NCBI RefSeq assembly: GCF_900106595.1 | Contig: NZ_FNNC01000002.1 | Span: 248,001 to 312,000 of the forward strand | DNA from: Marinococcus luteus | Lineage (GTDB): Bacteria > Bacillota > Bacilli > Bacillales > Marinococcaceae | Direction: 5' to 3' | Length of the DNA: 64,000 nucleotides | Shown here: one piece after another, positions 6,747 through 45,604 of the stretch | How the letters are laid out: the number at the start of each line of letters is the position of its first letter | Numbering within the stretch: the stretch's first letter is position 1 | Made by a program: the position numbers and the translations under genes | The notes under the pieces: generated by a model | What the model saw: only the letters and a program-made list of their open reading frames with translations | Database searches by the model: none | What the model was told of the DNA's origin: nothing

Positions 6747-7267
6747 CTATGACACCTGCGGCTTGACGTTAGTAGTTCCGAGACCAAAACGGTGAACCAT
6801 AACCAGCGTCTGCTCCATCGTATGTTTAGTGTCCGGAGTCACGAAGGTGACTTTTATACTCTCGCCGAGCAGCACCTGCTTGCCCGCATCCTGGGAATCT
6901 TTTTTTACCTCGACAATATATTCCAGTCCATACGACGGCTGTTCTTCTGAAGCCATATACACGTTCTGCCATTCGATTTCTTCAAGCAACTCCTGCATTT
7001 GCTCCCACTGCACGTAATTGCGGATGAGCCGGTTCATGCCCTCGTACATATAATGGTCTTTATTCACATGGTAATAGCGGCGGTTCTGTACTGGGCGGCC
7101 GGTAATCAGATCCATCTCGCTCAGCCGTTTTAGTTCCACGCGTATGGCGTTGGCTGAATCGTTGAACTCGCGGACAATTCTTCGTAAATATGTTTCTTCC
7201 TCGTATAAAAAAACTTCACGAGTAACCGTAATCTTGTTTTCGATGTAACTAATTGATGCAGCAACAA
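6747..7267 (-). pseudogene. Frameshifted winged-helix regulator, paralogue of 21261-21761
   Basis: Two overlapping frames together match the intact winged-helix protein at 21261 along its whole length. The first frame gives LLHQLVTSKTRLRLLVKFF from a TTG near 7264-7267 behind GGAGGAGG, then leaves the homologous frame. The second gives YEEETYLRRIVREF, SANAIRVELKRLSEMDLITGR and NRRYYHVNKDHY to the stop at 6747. The shift falls at a run of seven A on the plus strand (7207-7213); eight would restore a full-length protein. The family, N-terminal winged helix plus a ligand-like C-terminal half, occurs in polysaccharide loci. It is either a pseudogene, a phase-variable or slippage-expressed gene, or a sequencing error. 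Confidence 0.85.
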
Positions 7268-7412
7268 TTTTCCTCCTCCGGCGGTGATAATTTCAACAGG
7301 CATCTTCAAATGAGCGGAAAAATATTTGAATCCGGTTTTTAGTTCCTGTTTATTGCATCGGCTGTTTTGACAGGTTTCTGAAGGTATTTTGAAAAGTAAT
7401 TTACCGGGAGCG

Positions 7413-34153: not shown

Positions 34154-36634
34154 TTAATTTTTGCTGAAGTACGAATTCGTACCTTGATAAATTCCTTCAG
34201 CAAGCTTTTCTCTGTAGGAGCTTTGCTTCAGGTAGGAAGCTTCGGTGGAATTATCGATGAAACCAAGCTCTACCAATACAGATGGTACTTGTGTTTCACG
34301 GATCACGTGGAAATTTCCTTGCTTTTCTCCACGATCCCGTCCGGAGGTTGCCCGGAGCATTCCTGCCTGAATTTCTTCGGCCAGCTCTTTGCTTTCCTCG
34401 CGTTCGTACTTGCTGTACCAGTAAGTTTCGAGACCATTACCGCCACCCGCGTTTGTGTGAATACTGATAAAGGCATCCGCATCAGCGTTATTGCCAATAG
34501 AAGAACGCTGGGAGAGTGTTAGGTACTTATCAGTTTCCCGTGTCATTACAACATTTGCACCGGCTGCACGCAATTTGCTTGCCGCGTATTTTGCCGTTTC
34601 AAGGTTAATGTCTTTTTCTCTTAATCCATTCGCAACCGCTCCTGGATCACTTCCGCCATGCCCGGCGTCCAAAACAATTGTTTTACCGTCTACAGCGGAC
34701 TCAGATGGATACGTTTCATCTACGTTTAATGCTGCACGCAGAGCTTTCATCGTGTTCGGACCGGCTACACCGTCGACTGCTAGATTTTCAGAACGCTGAA
34801 AATCTTTTACTGCCTGATCGGTGGCGGAATCGAATTCATTGGATGGATTGCTTACACTCATGAAACCGAGCGCTTCAAGGTCGAGCTTCAGTTGGGCAAC
34901 AGCCTCATGAGTTGTGCCTACCTTCATGATCGAGATCGATCCGTAGTTGCCTGGATCACCGACGTCGCTTGCACTATCGTCATTCGATTCATCGTCGCTC
35001 TCTTTAGTGCTGAGAACTTCGCTGATCTTCGCTAGTGTCTTCGGACCGGCTACACCGTCTACGTACAAATCATGATCGCGCTGAAATTCTTTAACAGCTG
35101 CTTCGGTCTGCGGACCGAATTTGCCATTTGGATTTGAGATATCCAGGTACCCGAGCGTATACAGATCTTTTTTCATCGCCTGTGCTGCCGGGCTGTCCAC
35201 GCCGTCCTTCAGAAGGCCGCTATCATTCGAACTGCTGTCATCACTGCTATCGTCATTGGAGCTGTCATCATTGGAGCTGTCATCATTGGAGCTGTCATCA
35301 TTGGAGCTGTCGCTCAGCACCTCAGCCAGCTTTGCGAGCGTCTTTGGACCAGCTACACCGTCAATAGTGAGAGTGTACTGCTCCTGAAAGTCCCGCACAG
35401 CTTGCTCTGTTTTCGGACCGAAGTAGGTGGTCGGGTTATCGGTAACGTGGAAGCCTGCTTCGTTCAAATCCTTCTGAAGCTGCTGCACGTTCGATCCGCT
35501 CACGCCTTCCTTCATGACGTCACTGCTCGGACTGCTGTCATTCGAGCTGCTGTCGTCGCTGCTGTCGTCATTGGAGCTCTCGTTCAGCACCTCAGCCAGC
35601 TTCGCGAGCGTGTTCGGACCAGCGACGCCGTCAACGTAAAGGCCGTTCGCCTTTTGGAAGTCACGTACCGCCTGATCCGTTTTCGGACCGAAGTAGGTGG
35701 TCGGGTTATCGGTAACGTGGAAGCCTGCTTCGTTCAAATCCTTCTGAAGCTGCTGCACGTTCGACCCGCTCACGCCTTCCTTCATGACGTCACTGCTCGG
35801 ACTGCTGTCATTCGAGCTGCTGTCGTCTGAATCAGCATTCAGGGCTTCTTTCATTTTCGCAAGTGTCTTGTCATCTGCGATCCCGTTTGCCGTCAAGCCG
35901 TGATCCTTCTGGAAGGCAATAACCGCCGCTTCGGTCTGCGGCCCGAATTTGCCATTCGGACTTGAGATGTCCAGGTACCCGAGCGTATACAGGTCTTCTT
36001 TCATTGCCTGTGCCGCCGGGCTGTCCACACCGTCCTGCAGAAGGCCGCTGTCGCTCGAGCTGCTGTCGTCATTGGAGCTCTCGTTCAGCACCTCAGCAAG
36101 CTTCGCGAGCGTGTTCGGACCGGCGACGCCGTCAACGTAAAGGCCGTTCGCCTTTTGGAAGTCACGTACCGCCTGATCCGTTTTCGGTCCAAAGTGAACG
36201 GTTGGCGCGTTCACAACGTGAAAACCCGCTTCGTTCAAGTCCTTCTGAAGCTGCTGAACGTTCGACCCGCTCACACCCTCCTTCATCACGCCGCTGCTCG
36301 GACTGCTGTCATTCGAGCTGCTGTTTTTAGCATTCAGCACCTTTTCAAGCTCTGATAGGGTGTTAGGGCCGGCAATGCCGTCAACAACCAGGTTCTGATC
36401 CTTTTGGAAAGCCTTTACTGCGCTGTCCGTTTGTGGACCGAAGTAGGTCGTCGGATTGTCGGTAACGTGGAAGCCCGCTTCATTCAAGTCTTTTTGGAGT
36501 TCTTGAACCGCACTTCCACTATCCCCCTCTCTTAGCGATGAAGCAGCATCTGCCTGCTGGGTTTGAAATATTAAGGACGTTATAAGTACGAAGGCAGCTG
36601 CGAGTAGTATGTAGTTTTTGAGGTGAAAAATGAT
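34154..36634 (-). CDS. N-acetylmuramoyl-L-alanine amidase with seven peptidoglycan-binding repeats; ATC/ATT start
   Basis: 826 residues if read from ATC at 36634 (825 from ATT at 36631). The N-terminus is a good signal peptide (FHLKNYILLAAAFVLITSLIF, then QTQQADA). Seven PG_binding_1 repeats of about 65 residues follow, marked by LNEAGFHVTDNPTTYFGPKT and VDGVAGPNTLAKL, joined by Ser/Asn/Asp-rich linkers. The C-terminal Amidase_3 domain (from about residue 645) has the zinc ligands in VLDAGHGGSDPG, NGLREKDINLE and SIHTNAGG, and the catalytic-type Glu in SVLVELGFIDN. There is no ATG, GTG, TTG or CTG until codon 50. It is divergent from the SpoIID-like gene at 37019. Confidence 0.9.
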   Translation of the reverse strand: MIFHLKNYILLAAAFVLITSLIFQTQQADAASSLREGDSGSAVQELQKDLNEAGFHVTDNPTTYFGPQTDSAVKAFQKDQNLVVDGIAGPNTLSELEKVLNAKNSSSNDSSPSSGVMKEGVSGSNVQQLQKDLNEAGFHVVNAPTVHFGPKTDQAVRDFQKANGLYVDGVAGPNTLAKLAEVLNESSNDDSSSSDSGLLQDGVDSPAAQAMKEDLYTLGYLDISSPNGKFGPQTEAAVIAFQKDHGLTANGIADDKTLAKMKEALNADSDDSSSNDSSPSSDVMKEGVSGSNVQQLQKDLNEAGFHVTDNPTTYFGPKTDQAVRDFQKANGLYVDGVAGPNTLAKLAEVLNESSNDDSSDDSSSNDSSPSSDVMKEGVSGSNVQQLQKDLNEAGFHVTDNPTTYFGPKTEQAVRDFQEQYTLTIDGVAGPKTLAKLAEVLSDSSNDDSSNDDSSNDDSSNDDSSDDSSSNDSGLLKDGVDSPAAQAMKKDLYTLGYLDISNPNGKFGPQTEAAVKEFQRDHDLYVDGVAGPKTLAKISEVLSTKESDDESNDDSASDVGDPGNYGSISIMKVGTTHEAVAQLKLDLEALGFMSVSNPSNEFDSATDQAVKDFQRSENLAVDGVAGPNTMKALRAALNVDETYPSESAVDGKTIVLDAGHGGSDPGAVANGLREKDINLETAKYAASKLRAAGANVVMTRETDKYLTLSQRSSIGNNADADAFISIHTNAGGGNGLETYWYSKYEREESKELAEEIQAGMLRATSGRDRGEKQGNFHVIRETQVPSVLVELGFIDNSTEASYLKQSSYREKLAEGIYQGTNSYFSKN
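35251..35310. repeat. 15-base tandem repeat, four units
   Basis: Four near-perfect copies of a 15-base unit (CATTGGAGCTGTCAT on the plus strand) encode repeated Ser-Ser-Asn-Asp-Asp in the linker between the fifth and sixth peptidoglycan-binding repeats of amidase 1. Copy number can change by slippage without breaking the frame. Confidence 0.85.
35409..35827. repeat. 148-base direct repeat inside amidase 1, copies 270 bases apart
   Basis: 35409-35557 and 35679-35827 are identical except for about one base, covering parts of adjacent peptidoglycan-binding repeats and linkers. Recent internal duplication or gene conversion; a likely site of size variation. Confidence 0.85.
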
Positions 36635-36648
36635 TTATTCTCTCCTTT
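36629..36648 (-). promoter_or_regulatory. Shine-Dalgarno with ATC/ATT start of amidase 1
   Basis: AAAGGAGA (36648-36641) is followed six bases later by ATC (36634-36632) and then ATT (36631-36629). An in-frame TAA lies directly before the ATC, so the signal-peptide frame can only open here. Confidence 0.65.
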
Positions 36649-36792
36649 CGTTATAATTACTGATAAATTTGGGGTACATGTATATTTTATATGCCAATAC
36701 TTACGTCCTACAATGGGACTAACTTATATATTGCATATTATTACAATTTTTCATTTAAATAAACCCTCGTTAAACAACATTCTTTCTAAAAA

Positions 36793-36818
36793 ATTACGTT
36801 TTAATTACAAATATTACA
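36793..36818 (-). promoter_or_regulatory. WalR-like TGTAAT repeats upstream of amidase 1
   Basis: Read on the minus strand: TGTAAT, ATT, TGTAAT, TAAAA, CGTAAT. The second and third hexamers have the 11-base period of the WalR box TGTWAH-N5-TGTWAH with one mismatch. The 15-base part ATTACAAATATTACA (36804-36818, plus strand) is identical to one upstream of amidase 2. Confidence 0.5.
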
Positions 36819-36934
36819 GTATAAAAACCCCTTAAAATCAGTATTTAATAACCATTAAAGTTTTATATTGTGCTTTTTAACGGTAGTTATTTGTTACTTT
36901 TTTATGCATAATTATTTTCTTTATTAAAATTAGC

Positions 36935-36963
36935 TTGTAATTTCACTAGCCATTTCATACACT
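36935..36963 (+). promoter_or_regulatory. Candidate sigma-A promoter of SpoIID-like gene 1
   Basis: TTGTAA, a 17-base spacer and TACACT, 56 bases before the ATG. Confidence 0.5.
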
Positions 36964-37018
36964 TTCATTGTAGATAAAAAGTACTACTTCTTTATAAAAT
37001 CGAAAGGGCGTCTGATGA

Positions 37019-40000
37019 ATGAATAAATCGACAATGTTTCTCATTTTCGGGACTTTAGTTGGAACTACTTCCCTCAGCTTTACATTAGCTCCGCCAATTG
37101 TCGCTGAAGCGAATTCCGATGAAGAAACACAGAAGGAAGAAGAAACGTCCTTTATCCCCCTTGAAGAAGGAGCAGAAAATGACACTGTTTTAGAGGTCGA
37201 AGAATACCTCGAAACATTGGATTACATAGCAGTCGCTCCGGACTATATTTATGATGAAGAAACAACTGAGGCGGTGGAAACATTTCAGGCGGAAAACAGC
37301 CTCGGGATTACCGGTGTGGTTGATGAAGAAACCTTCGATACATTGAAACTGCTGGCTGAAGATACGGTGCCTGTCGAAGAGGAACCGGAAGCTGATTCAG
37401 CAGAAGAAGCTGCAGACGATGAGCAGGATACTGAAGCAGTTACTGAAGAAAAATCAGATGATTCGGCATCCAGGGAGCAGTCCGAAGATACCGAAGCAGA
37501 AGCCGAAGCTGCAGAAACAGAAGAAGCTGACCAGTCAGATGAAAAGCAGAACATCGAAGTTCTCGATTCCTCCGGGGAGACAGAACCTGCTAAAGAAGCT
37601 GAATCTGAAAATAATGAAGAAAACATTGCCACAGAAGAGCCTGAAAAGGAGATCCAAAAAGAGACAGAACCGCCATCGGAAGAAGATACGGAGGAAGAAA
37701 GCTCTAAAGATGAAGAGCCGGCAGACGAAGAAATTACTGACGATGAACAGCAGTCAGCTGTGGCTTCCTTCAGCACCTTTTCCATGCAGCCGGCATCAAT
37801 CAGCACCAGTCTGTTGAAAATCGGGGTATCAGGCAGTGAAGTCCAACAGCTGCAGGAAAACCTAAACGCGGCGGGCTTTCATGTGACGGACAATCCGACC
37901 ACCTACTTCGGCCCGAAAACCGAAGCGGCCGTTAAAGACTTCCAGCGCGCCAATAAACTGGTCGTTGACGGCGTTGCAGGATCAAATACACTTTCTGTAT
38001 TAGAAGAAGTACTGAGCAGTAGTTCTACTAATGAAAAAAATACTGAAAATAACAAAAGCGACAACGTCAGCAGCCCTAGCTTTATGAAAGAGGGTGTAAG
38101 CGGATCGAACGTGCAGCAGCTTCAGAAGGACTTGAACGAAGCGGGTTTTCACGTTGTGAACGCGCCAACCGTTCACTTTGGACCGAAAACGGACCAGGCG
38201 GTGCGGGATTTCCAAAAGGCGAACCGCCTGGTTGTTGACGGCGTCGCCGGCCCGAACACGCTCACGAAACTGCAAGAGGTGCTGAATGGCAGTGCAAACG
38301 ACTACAAGTCACTTAAACAAGGAGCGAGTGGTGCTGCTGTAAAACAATTGCAAACTGATTTGAATAAAGCCGGTTTTTTTGTGACAGAAAATCCGATCAC
38401 CTATTTCGGACCAAAAACAGAAAGAGCTGTTAAAGACCTACAGCGTACATACCATCTTCCAGTGACCGGTGTGGCAAATACCGCTACTTTAGAAACTTTA
38501 ACCAAAACCTTAAACACCTACTCTAAAGGGGATCGCAACGAAAAAATTCGTAAATATCAACAGTTACTTAATGAAGCCGGATTTTTTGTAACAGAAAACC
38601 CGATCACCTACTTCGGGCCGAAAACAGAAAGTACTGTGAGAGGATTTCAACGGGCTTACAACCTCCCGGTCACCGGCATGCTCGACAGCCAATCCATTCA
38701 AAAACTCGAAGATGTCACTCAGTCGATTAACCGTCTCGAACGAGGAGTTCGTCATGCCAGTGTTATAAATTTGCAACAGCTGTTGAATAAAGCAGGTTTC
38801 CATGTCACGGCTACCCCCATCAATTACTTTGGCCCAAAGACAGAAGACGCTTTGATAGACTTTCAGCAGACGTACAAACTGAAAGCAGACGGCGTTGCCA
38901 CAGACGAGGTTTTGGATGCTTTAAATAAAGCTGTTTCTGAGCGGAACAATGCACTGAAACGCTATGATTCCAACTCCGAGGTCAAAAAACTGCAGCAGAC
39001 CCTGAACGCTCTCGGGTACACGGTGACAAGCAATCCGACCAACTACTTCGGACCAAAAACGGAGTCCGCTTTAAAGGTTTTCCAGCGTGCGGAAGGGCTG
39101 CCGGTGACCGGAATGCTCGACAGCAGAACGGCAGAAGCTCTGGAGGCTGAAATGAACGAATCTATTCCATCTCCATTCACCTCCGTACTGAGCCAGGGCG
39201 ACAGCGGAGACAGTGTTATCATGCTGAAGCAGTACCTTGAAGCTGCCGGCTACAGCACTAACACATCAAGCACGTATGACCAGCTGACCGCTGATCAGGT
39301 GAAAGCCTATCAGTCCGCCAACGGGCTTTCTGCAAGCGGCTCGGCGAACGGCCAGACCTTGAGTTCCCTCGTTGAAAAGCGGGGCACCACGTACGTCTTC
39401 TCCGGCAAACAGCGCTTCGGCCACGGTGTCGGCATGACTCAGTGGGGTGCTTACGGCATGGCCCAGCAGGGATACAGCTACGATCAAATCTTAAAGCATT
39501 ACTATACCGGCATCGACGTAGTGAGCAGCGACAGCTATAAAAATAAAACGATGCGTGTACTTCTTGGAGACACCAAGAAAAATTCTGCTGACATTGAAAG
39601 TTCCTCCGCTTACAGTATCGTGACAACGGATGGAGATACGCTATTCGAAAACGTCTCCGGCTCCACCACCGTCACATACGGTTCAGGCGGAAACGGAACG
39701 TATACCGTAACAAATAACGGGACTGAAAAAACCACCACTGATCCGATTTATGCCGTAAATGCAAACAACGGCACCATCGAATACGACAACGTTACCTACA
39801 AGGGTGAAATTCATTTTTCCAAAAGCATCGTGGACGGCAAGTACACAAGCAGCTGGGTGATGGACGTCGTTAACCACGTGAGTATCGATACGTACCTTGA
39901 AGGCGTCGTTCCATATGAAATGTACACCAGCTGGAATGAACCGGATGCATACAAAGCCCAGGCGGTTGCCGCCCGCTCGTATGCGATGACAAAAATCAAA

Positions 40001-40498
40001 ACCTCCGGCACCTTCGATGTATATAACGATACTCGTTCACAGGTGTATCACGGTGTTCCTACCGGCTCTCATAACAGCCCGACCATTCTAAACGCCATTC
40101 AGTCCACGAGCGGACAGGCCATTCACTATAACGGCCGGCTGGTGGAAGGTGTCTACTCCGCCTCTGCAAGTGGCCACACCGTGGATGCTGCGGACGTGTG
40201 GGGAAATAATGTCGGCTACCTGATCGGTGTCCCGGATCCTTACGATCCATCCCAGTACAACCAGGTGAGCTGGACCGAATCCTTTTCGTTAAAAGACCTC
40301 TCAGCTGTTGATTATTTTAAAAATGAAAACAAAGGCGAGGTGCTCGCCCTGCAGCCAACGATGAAAAACGAACGTCTTCAAAGCATCGAGGTGATCATGG
40401 AAAAAGGAACAATCACTCTCACCGGTGACCAGTTCCGGAGCGCTGTCGACTCAAACGCCATGAAATCGAACATTTTAAGCATCGAGGAAATTAACTAA
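37019..40498 (+). CDS. SpoIID/LytB-like cell-wall protein with eight peptidoglycan-binding repeats, permuted SpoIID domain
   Basis: 1159 residues. A signal peptide (to about residue 30) is followed by a diverged peptidoglycan-binding unit, a Glu-rich acidic linker of about 140 residues (110-250), then seven more repeats (LNAAGFHVTDNPTTYFGPKT, LPVTGMLDSQ and so on) to about residue 790. The last part is SpoIID-like: GHGVGMTQWGAYGMAQQGYSYDQILKHYYTG first, then MRVLLGD, VVNHVSIDTYLEGVVPYEMYTSW, AYKAQAVAARSYAM, TRSQVYHG, GVYSASASGHT and YLIGVPDPYD. SpoIID proteins cut glycan strands or stimulate amidases; Glu in VPYEM matches the catalytic region. The family's C-terminal block comes first here. 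Divergent from amidase 1. Confidence 0.88.
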   Translation: MNKSTMFLIFGTLVGTTSLSFTLAPPIVAEANSDEETQKEEETSFIPLEEGAENDTVLEVEEYLETLDYIAVAPDYIYDEETTEAVETFQAENSLGITGVVDEETFDTLKLLAEDTVPVEEEPEADSAEEAADDEQDTEAVTEEKSDDSASREQSEDTEAEAEAAETEEADQSDEKQNIEVLDSSGETEPAKEAESENNEENIATEEPEKEIQKETEPPSEEDTEEESSKDEEPADEEITDDEQQSAVASFSTFSMQPASISTSLLKIGVSGSEVQQLQENLNAAGFHVTDNPTTYFGPKTEAAVKDFQRANKLVVDGVAGSNTLSVLEEVLSSSSTNEKNTENNKSDNVSSPSFMKEGVSGSNVQQLQKDLNEAGFHVVNAPTVHFGPKTDQAVRDFQKANRLVVDGVAGPNTLTKLQEVLNGSANDYKSLKQGASGAAVKQLQTDLNKAGFFVTENPITYFGPKTERAVKDLQRTYHLPVTGVANTATLETLTKTLNTYSKGDRNEKIRKYQQLLNEAGFFVTENPITYFGPKTESTVRGFQRAYNLPVTGMLDSQSIQKLEDVTQSINRLERGVRHASVINLQQLLNKAGFHVTATPINYFGPKTEDALIDFQQTYKLKADGVATDEVLDALNKAVSERNNALKRYDSNSEVKKLQQTLNALGYTVTSNPTNYFGPKTESALKVFQRAEGLPVTGMLDSRTAEALEAEMNESIPSPFTSVLSQGDSGDSVIMLKQYLEAAGYSTNTSSTYDQLTADQVKAYQSANGLSASGSANGQTLSSLVEKRGTTYVFSGKQRFGHGVGMTQWGAYGMAQQGYSYDQILKHYYTGIDVVSSDSYKNKTMRVLLGDTKKNSADIESSSAYSIVTTDGDTLFENVSGSTTVTYGSGGNGTYTVTNNGTEKTTTDPIYAVNANNGTIEYDNVTYKGEIHFSKSIVDGKYTSSWVMDVVNHVSIDTYLEGVVPYEMYTSWNEPDAYKAQAVAARSYAMTKIKTSGTFDVYNDTRSQVYHGVPTGSHNSPTILNAIQSTSGQAIHYNGRLVEGVYSASASGHTVDAADVWGNNVGYLIGVPDPYDPSQYNQVSWTESFSLKDLSAVDYFKNENKGEVLALQPTMKNERLQSIEVIMEKGTITLTGDQFRSAVDSNAMKSNILSIEEIN

Positions 40499-40506
40499 AG
40501 ACGGCA

Positions 40507-40545
40507 AAAAGGGAGCTTCTCTTCATAGAGATGCTCCCTTTTATT
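40507..40545. terminator. Bidirectional terminator between SpoIID-like 1 and amidase 2
   Basis: AAAAGGGAGC / GCTCCCTTTT stem with an inner TCTCT/AGAGA stem; T-runs on both strands serve the convergent genes. Confidence 0.85.
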
Positions 40546-42625
40546 ACTTTTCTTCAAAAAATTGGTCCACGCCGCCGGTGAGTCCTTCAGATGTATCATC
40601 CAGGTAGTCCTCTTCTCTTAAATTGGCTGCGTCTGTCGAGCTGTCAATAAACCCGATTTCCGCCAAAATAGCTGGAATATTCGTATCCCGGATCACCTGA
40701 AAGTTGCCTTCCTTCACTCCACGGTCCGTGGCGCCTGTCGCCTCAATCAACTGCTCCTGCACATCTTCAGCCAGTCGTTCGCTTCTTTCAGCCTCGTGCT
40801 CTCCGTACCAGTAGCTTTCGTCGCCGACACCGCCGCCGGCGTTTACATGGACACTCACGAACGCATCGGCGTTTGCATTATTCGCCACTTCTGTTCGTTC
40901 ATTCAGCGATAAATACCGGTCCGTCTCCCGGGTCATCACCACGGTGGCCCCCATTGCCTCCAGGTCGCTCTTCAGCTTCAGTCCGGTGTCGAGCACGATA
41001 TCTTTTTCCTCCAGCCCGTTCGCTGCCGCTCCACCATCATAGCCGCCGTGGCCCGGGTCAACAACTACCGTTTTGCCCCGAAGCGTGCCAGGGGCGCTTT
41101 GGTTCAATTCCCCGTCGATCGCATCGAGCGTATTGGGACCGGCAATGCCATCAATTGCAAGGCCATGCTCCCGTTGAAAGGCTGCTACAGCGTCCGATGT
41201 TTCGCTATTGTATTCCTCGGTATATGTTCCCTGGAAATATTCCAGCTGATGCAAATCCTCCTGAAGATCAACCACTGCCTGACCGGTGCTTTCTGCTTTC
41301 AGCACCCCGGGATCCGTATTTTCCTCTTCTTCCTGCACTTCATCCAGCTTAGCCAGCGTTTCTGGACCAGCCACCCCATCGATGGCCAATTCATATTCCT
41401 GCTGGAACTCTTCAACCGCCGTTTCAGTGTCTTCATCAAAATAAGCATTAGGATCGTCCATGACATGGAAGCCAGCCTCGTTCAGTTTTTCCTGAAGCTC
41501 CTGGACCTCCTCTCCCTCATCGTTAATACTGAGAAGATCATTTGAAGTGCTTGCTTCTTCGGATTCTTCCTCAGACTCTTTTTTCTCTGCTTCCTGTTTA
41601 GTTTTCAGAACTCCTTCTAAAGCAGATAATGTTTTCGTGCCAGCAGCGCCATCGGCAGTCAGGTCGTTATCCTCCTGAAACTCTTTTACCGCTTCTTTTG
41701 TTTTTGGCCCAAAATAGGTCGTTGGCTCATCTGTCACATGAAAACCAGCTTCGTTTAAATCCTCCTGCAGAGCCTGAATACGGTCACTGCTCATTCCTTC
41801 GGAAAGAGAATCAGTATCCTCGCTTTCATTTGTTTCTTCCGGTTCACTTTCCGGCTCTGCCTCGTTTACTTCTTCGAGCGCTTCGAGCGTATTGGCGCCC
41901 GCAACGCCGTCCACCGAAAGCCCCTCTGCTTTCTGGAAGTTTTCTACCGAGGTTTCGGTGCGGGGTCCGAAATAAGTCGTCGGCTCATCGGTCACATGGA
42001 AGCCGGCTTCATTTAAATCCCGCTGCAGCTCTTTTATGTATTCACTATCGTCTCCTGCTTTATACACGCCCGAAGCAGAAGCACTGCCGGTATTATTAAG
42101 GACCATATCGAGCTCGGAGATAGTGTTCTCATCCGCTATGCCATTATCCTCGAGCTGATAGGAACGCTGAAATTCCCGGACGGCTTCTCTTGTTTTTGGC
42201 CCGAAGTAGGTGGTCGGATTATCCGTCACTGGAAAACCAGCTTCATTTAAATCCCGCTGCAGTTCGATAACACGATCGCCGCTGTCACCTTCCTCCAGTC
42301 CTGATAAAGCATCCGGGGCGCTTGCTGTTGATGTGTCCAGCGCCTCCCACGTATTGGGTCCTGCAATGCCGTCGACAATCAAACCATTAGCCTGTTGAAA
42401 TTCTTCTACTGCTCCGCTTGTTTTTGGGCCGAAATATATAGTGGGTGTTTCTGTGACCTCAAAACCAGCATCGTTAAGTGTTTTCTGCAGCTCCTTTACG
42501 TCTCCTCCAGAATCTCCCTCCTCCAACGTTTCCCCTGCTCCTTCTGCTGTCTGGGCATACAGCGGGAAAGTCGATGCGAGAGCCAAAGCTGTGCCTATTG
42601 GCAGCAAATGCCTGCGTGTTGAAAT
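40544..42625 (-). CDS. N-acetylmuramoyl-L-alanine amidase with six peptidoglycan-binding repeats; ATT start
   Basis: 693 residues when read from ATT at 42625, seven bases after a perfect AGGAGGT. That start gives a complete signal peptide, MSTRRHLLPIGTALALAS then TFPLYAQTA, with the needed basic residues; the next possible start (TTG at 42607) loses them. Six PG_binding_1 repeats (LNEAGFHVTDEPTTYFGPKT type) with Glu-rich linkers lead to an Amidase_3 domain with zinc ligands in VVDPGHGGYDGG, NGLEEKDIVLD and SVHVNAGGG and Glu in AILAEIGFIDS. The protein is very acidic. It is a paralogue of amidase 1 and divergent from the SpoIID-like gene at 42887. Confidence 0.9.
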   Translation of the reverse strand: MSTRRHLLPIGTALALASTFPLYAQTAEGAGETLEEGDSGGDVKELQKTLNDAGFEVTETPTIYFGPKTSGAVEEFQQANGLIVDGIAGPNTWEALDTSTASAPDALSGLEEGDSGDRVIELQRDLNEAGFPVTDNPTTYFGPKTREAVREFQRSYQLEDNGIADENTISELDMVLNNTGSASASGVYKAGDDSEYIKELQRDLNEAGFHVTDEPTTYFGPRTETSVENFQKAEGLSVDGVAGANTLEALEEVNEAEPESEPEETNESEDTDSLSEGMSSDRIQALQEDLNEAGFHVTDEPTTYFGPKTKEAVKEFQEDNDLTADGAAGTKTLSALEGVLKTKQEAEKKESEEESEEASTSNDLLSINDEGEEVQELQEKLNEAGFHVMDDPNAYFDEDTETAVEEFQQEYELAIDGVAGPETLAKLDEVQEEEENTDPGVLKAESTGQAVVDLQEDLHQLEYFQGTYTEEYNSETSDAVAAFQREHGLAIDGIAGPNTLDAIDGELNQSAPGTLRGKTVVVDPGHGGYDGGAAANGLEEKDIVLDTGLKLKSDLEAMGATVVMTRETDRYLSLNERTEVANNANADAFVSVHVNAGGGVGDESYWYGEHEAERSERLAEDVQEQLIEATGATDRGVKEGNFQVIRDTNIPAILAEIGFIDSSTDAANLREEDYLDDTSEGLTGGVDQFFEEK

Positions 42626-42639
42626 ATCTCATACCTCCT
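42623..42639 (-). promoter_or_regulatory. Shine-Dalgarno with ATT start of amidase 2
   Basis: AGGAGGT (42639-42633), seven bases, then ATT (42625-42623). An in-frame TGA lies at 42631-42629. An out-of-frame ATG abuts the Shine-Dalgarno with no spacing. Confidence 0.7.
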
Positions 42640-42741
42640 GATTAGTGTAATAAACTGCACTTCCTGTCCATTCTATCGACACTGTACAGGGGGTCACAAT
42701 AGTTCCAAATTGTATTCTTTAATGATGATATACCCAGCAAT

Positions 42742-42756
42742 ATTACAAATATTACA
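42742..42756 (-). promoter_or_regulatory. WalR-like TGTAAT repeat upstream of amidase 2
   Basis: TGTAAT-ATT-TGTAAT on the minus strand, identical over 15 bases to the element upstream of amidase 1 and in the same orientation to the amidase gene, about 115 bases before its start. Confidence 0.5.
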
Positions 42757-42807
42757 CCAACTTTTTCATCTTTTTATCCCTGAATGAATGGAAATTCATA
42801 GGATTCC

Positions 42808-42836
42808 TTGAAAATTATACTTTGTTTGCATAGACT
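42808..42836 (+). promoter_or_regulatory. Candidate sigma-A promoter of SpoIID-like gene 2
   Basis: TTGAAA, a 17-base spacer and TAGACT, about 50 bases before the TTG start. Confidence 0.55.
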
Positions 42837-42886
42837 CTCTGGTATACATAAGGATCTAATTATATATACCTAAAAGGGGTTTTTAT

Positions 42887-45604
42887 TTGTTTAAACCAGG
42901 TAAATTTTTGTTATACAGCACGGTAGCCGGGTCTGCTTCTCTTTACCTTTGGTCCGCTGCACCGTCGGAGGTTCAGGCTTATGCCTACGACAACCTGCCG
43001 TTAAGCGAAACCTCCTCCGGCGAAGACGTGCTTCAGCTGCAGCAAGACTTAAATGAAGCAGGATTTCATGTGACGGATAATCCCACCGACTATTTCGGGC
43101 CGCTTACAGAAAGTGCAGTGGAGGACTTCCAGCGCTCCAACGGGCTAACTGTAACCGGCGAAGCAGGAAGGCAGACCATTGATGCCTTGAGCAACGAATT
43201 AACAGATGGATTTCGGCGGGGCGACAGTGATCCAGCCATTCAGGACTACCAGGAAGATCTAAATACGGCCGGCTTTCACGTAACAAACAATCCAATCGCT
43301 TACTTCGGTCCAAAGACACAAAGAGCCGTAGAAAATTTCCAGCGGGCATATAACCTTCCAAGCACTGGCATACTCAACGAAGAAACGGTTGATGCTCTGC
43401 AATATGCGATCTCATCCCCTAATAGCTTTCAAAGAGGGGATCGCCATAAAGAAGTCCAACGCATTCAAGAGCTATTAAATAAAGTAGGCTTCTATGTAAC
43501 AGATAATCCAATTACATATTTTGGGCCAAAAACAGAGGGCGCTTTAAAAGATTTTCAGGAATCATTCGGGCTTCCTGCAGATGGCGTTGCCGAAGAAAGC
43601 ACATTGCAGTTGTTGGAACAGGAGGAACCAGGCTACGTCAAAGGCATGAAGCACGAAAATATTCAAACGTACCAGCAGATGCTGAACGATGCTGGATTTC
43701 ATGTAACTGACGAGCCCTCCGCCTACTTCGGACCGCTGACCGAACAGGCTGTGGAGGACTTTCAACGCTCGTACAGTCTTCCGGTCACTGGCATTCTTGA
43801 TGATGAAACAATAGAGGTTTTGGAAACAGCCAGCGAACCCCCGGAGGTTCTTAAAAACGGTGTGCGCCACGCTTCGGTCCAGGAGCTACAGCGGCTGTTA
43901 AATGACGCTGGCTTCCACGTAACGGATAATCCGATTAATTATTTTGGTCCAAAAACCGAAGAAGCGCTCCGGGAATTTCAGCAATTTTATGGCCTCGAAG
44001 AAACCGGGACAGCTGACAGCGAAACAAAAGAAACACTGGAAACTTACATTGAACAATCAGAAGAAGCGTTGCAGCGCGGAGACACAAATGACAGCGTGGA
44101 GGAGCTGCAGACCAGCCTGAACGCTCTTGGCTTCTACGTAACAGATGCACCGGACACTTATTTTGATGCTTCCACGGAGGAAGCACTGCAGGAATTCCAG
44201 GAAGATCAGGGGCTCCCTGCCACCGGCATGTATGATGTTGTGACAAAAGAAACGCTGGAGGAACTGGCAGCGGAATCGTTTCCTTCTCCTTTCGAGCATG
44301 AATTACAGGAAGGATACGCAGGAGAAAACGTCCAGCTTTTAAAACAGCACTTAACAGCGGCAGGATTTGAAACGAGCGCAGGGGACAGCTTCGATCCCGA
44401 CACCACAGCCCGGGTGGAGGAATACCAGCAGGAGCGGGGTCTTTCCGTCACTGGGAGAGCTGATGCTGCCACGTTAACCTCTCTGCTTGAAATGGATAGC
44501 AAAACCTATGATTTCTACGGCAAAGACCAGAACGGCCACGGCGTCGGCATGACCCAGTGGGGTGCTTACGGTATGGCCCAGGAAGGTAATAGCTATGAAG
44601 AGATTCTCGAGTATTATTATACTGACATTGACGTTACGACGAGCAGCGACTACCAGGACCGCGATATCCGTGTGCTGCTCGGCGAAACCGAGCAACATTC
44701 CGCCACGATCGAAAGCAGTGACAGCTACGACATTGTAGACGCTGACGGCGAGCCTGTCCTTGAAGACCTGGAAGGCACTACAGGGATTTCCTACGGAGAC
44801 GATGGCAGCGGGGAGTTCGTTATTACTAATGGAGATACCAGTGCAACGACTGAAAGCAGTATATCAACTGAAAGTGATGGGACAGTCCAGCACGAAGACA
44901 CCGAATATCGAGGAAGCCTTCAATTTAAGAAATCAGACATCGACGGTACCCAGAGCAACTGGGTAATGGATGTGGTCAACCATGTCGACATCGATGATTA
45001 TCTTGAAGGTGTGGTTCCTTACGAAATGTACAGCAGCTGGGACGAGCCGGAGGCGTTTAAAGTTCAGGCCGTTGCTGCCAGGGCATATGCCCTCACCCAG
45101 GCTTCACCGGAAAGTAATTTCGATGTGTATGACGACACTCGTTCCCAGGTATACCACGGCATACCTACAGGTCCACAGGATAAACCGATGATTCTGGATG
45201 CCATCCATGATACAAGCGGGACTGTACTCACTTATGACGGACAGCTCGTGGAAGGAATTTATTCCGCATCCGCAAGCGGCCATACAGAGGATGCCGAAAA
45301 CGTATGGGGCAGTGAGTTTGATTACCTGACTGGCGTGGAGGATCCGTATGACGGTTCTTCTTATGCGCAGGTCAGCTGGGAAGAATCCTTCTCCACCGGA
45401 GACATTTCCAGCATGGAATATTTCCAGGAGGAGGATAAAGGGGATGTCCTCGCTCTCCGGCCGGTAATGGAAAATGAACGACTGCAGGAAATGGAAGTTG
45501 TTATGGAAGAAGAAACTATTACTTTATCCGGAGACCAGTTCCGGAGCGCCGTGGACTCCAATGAAATGGAATCCAACATTATGCGTATTGAAGAAAAAGA
45601 ATAG
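42887..45604 (+). CDS. SpoIID/LytB-like cell-wall protein with seven peptidoglycan-binding repeats, permuted SpoIID domain
   Basis: 905 residues from a TTG eight bases after AAAAGGGG. The signal peptide is KFLLYSTVAGSASLYLW to about residue 33 (VQA). Seven peptidoglycan-binding repeats fill residues about 38-535. The SpoIID-like part begins with GHGVGMTQWGAYGMAQEGNSYEEILEYYYTD, then IRVLLGETEQHSATI, VVNHVDIDDYLEGVVPYEMYSSW, AFKVQAVAARAYALTQ, TRSQVYHG, GIYSASASGHT and YLTGVEDPYD. It is a clear paralogue of the 37019 protein without the long acidic linker but with a strongly acidic composition overall. It pairs divergently with amidase 2, repeating the arrangement seen at 34154-40498. Confidence 0.88.
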   Translation: MFKPGKFLLYSTVAGSASLYLWSAAPSEVQAYAYDNLPLSETSSGEDVLQLQQDLNEAGFHVTDNPTDYFGPLTESAVEDFQRSNGLTVTGEAGRQTIDALSNELTDGFRRGDSDPAIQDYQEDLNTAGFHVTNNPIAYFGPKTQRAVENFQRAYNLPSTGILNEETVDALQYAISSPNSFQRGDRHKEVQRIQELLNKVGFYVTDNPITYFGPKTEGALKDFQESFGLPADGVAEESTLQLLEQEEPGYVKGMKHENIQTYQQMLNDAGFHVTDEPSAYFGPLTEQAVEDFQRSYSLPVTGILDDETIEVLETASEPPEVLKNGVRHASVQELQRLLNDAGFHVTDNPINYFGPKTEEALREFQQFYGLEETGTADSETKETLETYIEQSEEALQRGDTNDSVEELQTSLNALGFYVTDAPDTYFDASTEEALQEFQEDQGLPATGMYDVVTKETLEELAAESFPSPFEHELQEGYAGENVQLLKQHLTAAGFETSAGDSFDPDTTARVEEYQQERGLSVTGRADAATLTSLLEMDSKTYDFYGKDQNGHGVGMTQWGAYGMAQEGNSYEEILEYYYTDIDVTTSSDYQDRDIRVLLGETEQHSATIESSDSYDIVDADGEPVLEDLEGTTGISYGDDGSGEFVITNGDTSATTESSISTESDGTVQHEDTEYRGSLQFKKSDIDGTQSNWVMDVVNHVDIDDYLEGVVPYEMYSSWDEPEAFKVQAVAARAYALTQASPESNFDVYDDTRSQVYHGIPTGPQDKPMILDAIHDTSGTVLTYDGQLVEGIYSASASGHTEDAENVWGSEFDYLTGVEDPYDGSSYAQVSWEESFSTGDISSMEYFQEEDKGDVLALRPVMENERLQEMEVVMEEETITLSGDQFRSAVDSNEMESNIMRIEEKE

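Follow-up and report, generated by a model that had tools for sequence, protein, structure and literature searches.

A probable AUU start codon behind a perfect Shine-Dalgarno sequence in an amidase gene of Marinococcus luteus

Where does translation begin in a gene whose reading frame offers no usable canonical start codon? This question is raised by a cell-wall amidase gene of the halophilic Marinococcus luteus (here called amidase 1), located on the minus strand of the window, i.e. the whole stretch of 64,000 nucleotides of DNA that was analyzed (Table 1). Upstream its frame is closed by a TGA, and downstream the first canonical codon is a TTG at 42607 that lacks a Shine-Dalgarno (SD) sequence.

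The start site and the amidase 1 protein

A sequence-only reading had proposed that amidase 1 starts at an ATT (42625-42623) seven bases behind AGGAGGT, and the observations on which this proposal was built all hold. The SD sequence is followed by a 7-nt spacer (ATGAGAT) and then by ATT (8 nt from AGGAGG to ATT), the in-frame TGA lies two codons ahead of the ATT at 42631-42629, and the first codons read ATT TCA ACA CGC AGG CAT TTG, with ATG, GTG and CTG all absent from the frame upstream of the TTG. The 3' end of the host 16S rRNA reads ...GGATCACCTCCTTTCT, which makes AGGAGGT a perfect seven-base match to the anti-SD sequence; an SD that pairs with the host 16S rRNA thus precedes the AUU of amidase 1 at a distance within the 5-10 nt range. 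The arrangement AGGAGGT-N7-ATT occurs once in the window, compared to 0.06 occurrences expected from shuffled sequences. For an SD followed by ATT with N6 spacing there are 8 matches in the genome, which is not above the reversed control, and the N7 site of amidase 1 is outside this pattern. Translation of amidase 1 from AUU 42625 is a prediction that we consider strongly supported. Further upstream, a candidate promoter was found whose counterpart in Marinococcus halotolerans reads TTGTGA-N17-TAGAAT, and predicted folding of the leader RNA showed nothing above chance (z 0.13).

The frame opened by the ATT comprises 693 codons. The name "Amidase 2", under which the protein had been described at first, needs to be corrected, as its catalytic domain is Pfam Amidase_3 (PF01520; 165 bits versus a cut-off of 27, profile positions 1-173 of 174) and the Amidase_2 profile is not among the Pfam matches of the protein. 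A signal peptide with basic residues, which had also been predicted, is indeed encoded if translation is read from the ATT (its limits were judged by eye): the AUU start supplies an RRH n-region, and the TTG start does not. The product would begin Met-Ser-Thr-Arg-Arg and have a normal signal peptide.

Table 1. Features of the amidase 1 locus, the neighbouring genes and other genes with proposed near-cognate starts (positions in the window unless a contig is given)
Feature	Position	Strand	Remarks
Amidase 1: signal peptide (STRRHLLPIGTALALASTFPLYA), PG_binding_1 repeats (6 stretches), Amidase_3	40544..42625	-	start inferred
Proposed AUU start codon of amidase 1 (ATT)	42623..42625	-	sequence; M. 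halotolerans alignment
Shine-Dalgarno sequence AGGAGGT of amidase 1	42633..42639	-	matches host 16S 3' end; same in M. halotolerans
In-frame TGA, two codons 5' of ATT	42629..42631	-	kept in M. halotolerans
TTG, first canonical in-frame start of amidase 1, rejected	42605..42607	-	no SD; basic n-region lost
Candidate promoter of amidase 1, TTGTGA-N18-TAGAAT	42670..42699	-	consensus match only
Amidase 2: PG_binding_1 repeats behind a signal peptide, and a C-terminal amidase part that shares homology with amidase 1	34154..36634	-	
Proposed ATC-ATT start region of amidase 2	36629..36634	-	right after in-frame TAA, behind AAAGGAG
Divergent SpoIID-domain (LytB-like) partner with PG_binding_1 repeats, TTG start	42887..45604	+	
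Second SpoIID-like protein with PG_binding repeats, ATG start	37019..40498	+	domain by similarity to 42887-45604
PRD/HTH_11/EIIA regulator	G000:C8 289806-291911	+	GGGAGG-TGA-ATC-ATC-ATC, 4/4 genus members having the start region
EgtB-like protein	G000:C6 122247-123563	+	AGGAGG-N8-ATC, AUC in 5/5 genus members
SDR (short-chain dehydrogenase)	G000:C8 727022-727810	-	AAAGGAGG-N7-ATC, AUC in 5/5 genus members
PD-(D/E)XK protein (FEIKTYPEFSW)	G000:C13 199311-200255	-	AAGGAG-TGATTTCTC-CTG, CTG in 5/5 genus members

Conservation of the start region and alternative starts

The nearest genome carrying the locus is that of M. halotolerans DSM 16375, whose amidase 1 protein is 86% identical and in which SD, TGA and ATT of the gene are identical letter for letter. 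From CAGTTTATTACACTAATCAGGAGGTATGAGATATT in the leader to the fifth codon more than 40 consecutive bases are unchanged, and outside this segment the identity of the gene is 80.9%; 9% of same-sized coding-region segments compared between the two genomes equal or exceed this conservation. Because the two species are close and M. halotolerans is the single genome outside the host in which an orthologue was found, the identity of the start region is suggestive rather than overwhelming.

Draft genomes often contain errors of single bases, and a T-to-G change at this position would yield an ATG; a canonical start in this frame might thus be concealed by an error of sequencing or assembly. However, the independently sequenced genome of M. 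halotolerans shows no difference at SD, TGA and ATT, and with two independent genomes in agreement a shared assembly error is very unlikely. The comparison of the start region with a relative, which the sequence-only reading had suggested as a check, therefore argues against a sequencing error, and the probability that we assign to this explanation is negligible. A 1-nt indel between the two species upstream of the promoter-like TAGAAT, together with the TGA closing the amidase 1 frame in both, also indicates that the protein has no additional N-terminal part hidden upstream.

The TTG at 42607 is the first canonical codon of the frame, it is likewise kept in M. halotolerans, and a weak n-region occasionally suffices for export. 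If it were the real start, the product would be MLPIGTALALAS and the upstream SD and ATT would be incidental. However, as had been recognized before, the TTG has no ribosome binding site of its own (it lies 26 nt from AGGAGG) and initiation there would remove the basic residues, i.e. both arginines, from the signal peptide, leaving it without RRH; moreover, a perfect SD would be conserved for nothing. We consider a start at the TTG unlikely. An ATG at 42632, which overlaps the TGA (ATGA) just behind the SD and opens a frame of 52 codons, could serve amidase 1 if the ribosome subsequently shifted into the amidase frame, but its spacer from the SD is 1 nt and thus too short, its frame encodes no signal peptide, and no shift site was seen. 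As the ATT frame is already open, such a shift is unneeded, and we regard it as highly improbable. Neither the TTG nor the ATG accounts for the conserved SD of amidase 1.

Near-cognate starts in the paralogue and elsewhere in the genus

The AUU start of amidase 1 had been presented implicitly as unique, and AUU starts in general as very rare (infC, pcnB). The latter view is out of date, and the former has to be given up since there are further near-cognate starts in the genus, including a second and clearer case in the window at 36634. This is the proposed start of the paralogue amidase 2, where ATC-ATT opens a signal peptide ((I)IFHLKNYILLAAAFVLITSLIFQTQQADA) and the first ATG, GTG or TTG is codon 49, within the first PG_binding domain. 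A rescue by a downstream codon of the kind conceivable for the TTG of amidase 1 is thus not available, because the first canonical codon sits inside a folded domain. The start region is identical in M. halotolerans, and amidase 2 must, by our prediction, start at ATC-ATT behind AAAGGAG. Amidase homologues in two genomes (G001 and G004) show ATC-ARG-ATG; their start is ambiguous and they were left out of the count. The region 34154-45604 encodes two PG_binding/amidase and two PG_binding/SpoIID proteins, arranged as divergent pairs. At E 1e-60, a search of 24 other genomes of the family gave no amidase match, and this wall cluster is therefore apparently genus-specific.

In a start-codon survey of ORFs of at least 100 codons, covering 2.49 of 2.91 Mb (86% of the genome), four more genes were found without a canonical start at the conserved beginning of the protein; all have AUC or CUG behind an SD (the regulator, EgtB, SDR and PD-(D/E)XK genes in Table 1), and these start codons are kept even where the upstream sequence differs. 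The infC gene starts with ATT-ATT behind TGGAGGT in five of five genus members. Outside the genus, 12 genomes have ATG or TTG exactly at the position of the PD-(D/E)XK CTG. In distantly related EgtB and SDR genes, one of the codons ATG, GTG and TTG lies near the position of the AUC, while in one other genus (G027) each of the two genes has AUC and a nearby in-frame stop. The frame of the PRD/HTH_11/EIIA regulator is cut after about 125 codons in G004 and G003. At least seven genes of the genome, including infC and both amidases, have predicted AUU, AUC or CUG starts conserved within the genus, a number that stems from a survey of the host genome alone and does not imply that it is unusual for the lineage. 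As such starts are real and recurrent here, most of the doubt over the start of amidase 1 is removed.

The weight placed on conservation is deliberate. When codons following SDs in 5' zones were counted, ATC ranked first with 37 per 1000, and ATT reached 11.5 per 1000, with AGT and TCC close. This control for codon enrichment is too noisy to stand alone, which is why conservation was taken as the criterion; SD-like sequences precede many other codons in these zones, so that an SD together with ATT by itself proves little. Rejected candidates were prfB (C9 22356-23405), which is the known RF2 frameshift gene, and fabH-like and nusG-like hits, which have ordinary ATGs downstream.

In-frame stops at most three codons upstream of the proposed start are present in amidase 1, amidase 2, the PRD regulator, the PD-(D/E)XK gene and the EgtB gene of G001. 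This would fit termination-reinitiation, in which a ribosome that has translated a short upstream frame as far as the TGA begins anew at the AUU and thereby bypasses codon selection. However, in the case of amidase 1 the GTGs in the upstream frame fall within the predicted promoter, the 1-nt indel between the two species breaks this frame, and several of the stops are merely part of an extended SD (GGAGGTGA). Reinitiation is in our opinion quite improbable.

Expected effect on translation and comparison with known systems

Amidase 1 very probably has a genuine weak AUU start that is rescued by a strong SD, resulting in low and probably IF3-sensitive translation. The seven-base SD at optimal distance would set the ribosome on the near-cognate AUU, which fMet-tRNA would read poorly; the amidase would thus be made at a low level, which should rise when IF3 activity falls. 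In Staphylococcus aureus grown in poor medium, reporters with the starts of cvfC1 (AUU), ccpN and citZ (AUA) reached approximately 10% of the level obtained with AUG, and those near-cognate starts that are conserved have strong, extended SDs (PMC13009471). Near-cognate starts are repressed by IF3, and the level of Streptomyces SigR, translated from a GUC start, is lowered by IF3 overproduction and raised by IF3 fidelity mutations (PMC5472188). For E. coli pcnB, the AUU start is described as limiting translation (Binns and Masters 2002, as cited in PMC13009471 and PMC9410913). As near-cognate initiation in the tested Firmicute cases proceeds at about one tenth of the AUG level and is opposed by IF3, amidase 1 can be expected to be expressed at a low level and to respond to IF3; by analogy, we infer both that the AUU lowers its translation and that IF3 exerts control over it. 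An autolysin would be a plausible client of such a translational throttle because its excess is harmful, although this is our own argument.

The start of amidase 1 is of an already known type, a predicted near-cognate codon with a strong SD as in infC, pcnB and the staphylococcal cvfC1 and ccpN. The infC genes of E. coli, Bacillus and this genus have an AUU start behind an SD, as does amidase 1. The product of infC, IF3, regulates the expression of its own gene. Since amidase 1 is not part of the translation machinery, any effect of IF3 would, unlike in infC, extend its control to a gene outside this machinery. E. coli pcnB shares the AUU start and differs in function and lineage. The cvfC1 (AUU) and ccpN, infC and citZ (AUA) genes of S. 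aureus resemble amidase 1 in being Firmicute genes with near-cognate starts and strong SDs, but they are other genes, and the near-cognate starts predicted here from the sequence are AUU, AUC and CUG rather than AUA. Streptomyces sigR is, like amidase 1, a non-infC gene with a non-canonical start; in contrast to amidase 1, whose start was read from the sequence, it encodes a sigma factor, starts with GTC, and is a case in which the effect of IF3 was tested. With respect to the proteins themselves, amidases of the LytC/CwlB type combine Amidase_3 with a neighbouring LytB/SpoIID partner. Amidase 1 resembles these in having Amidase_3 adjoining a SpoIID-domain protein, and differs from them in that the wall-binding part consists of PG_binding_1 repeats and that the amidases have AUU/AUC starts.

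Relaxed decoding machinery was considered as a genome-wide cause and rejected: the host IF3 is present, close to solved bacterial IF3s and looks ordinary, the initiator tRNA is equally ordinary (CAU anticodon, C1:A72 mismatch, GGG/CCC anticodon stem), and no altered factor is evident. A general loosening of start selection is thus not apparent, though normal-looking components are no proof. A broader reading, that Marinococcus and at least one sister genus possess an unusually large conserved set of AUU/AUC/CUG genes forming an IF3-responsive group, through which the state of initiation factors or ribosomes would be linked to wall hydrolysis (by way of the two paralogous amidases), to a PTS-type regulator and to enzymes of metabolism, seems rather doubtful to us. 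With seven or more conserved near-cognate starts, of which two belong to adjacent autolysins, the genus offers a natural test set for the rescue of weak codons by strong SDs. The same genes bear on the control of non-translation genes by IF3 levels, a question that so far rests on a handful of cases.

Because gene finders allow only ATG, GTG and TTG, genes of this kind are annotated with wrong starts, lose their signal peptides or appear as fragments. A 181-codon frame in the window (6750-7292, minus strand), for which a Pfam search gave no match, has its first canonical start at codon 51 and an ATT-GTT behind GGAGGAGG; this is possibly a further AUU start or a decayed gene. Similarly, a sensor-kinase-like gene (G000:C6 132903-134522, plus strand) shows AAGGAGG-N6-ATT, with an SD-less ATG five codons later, and possibly has an AUU start.
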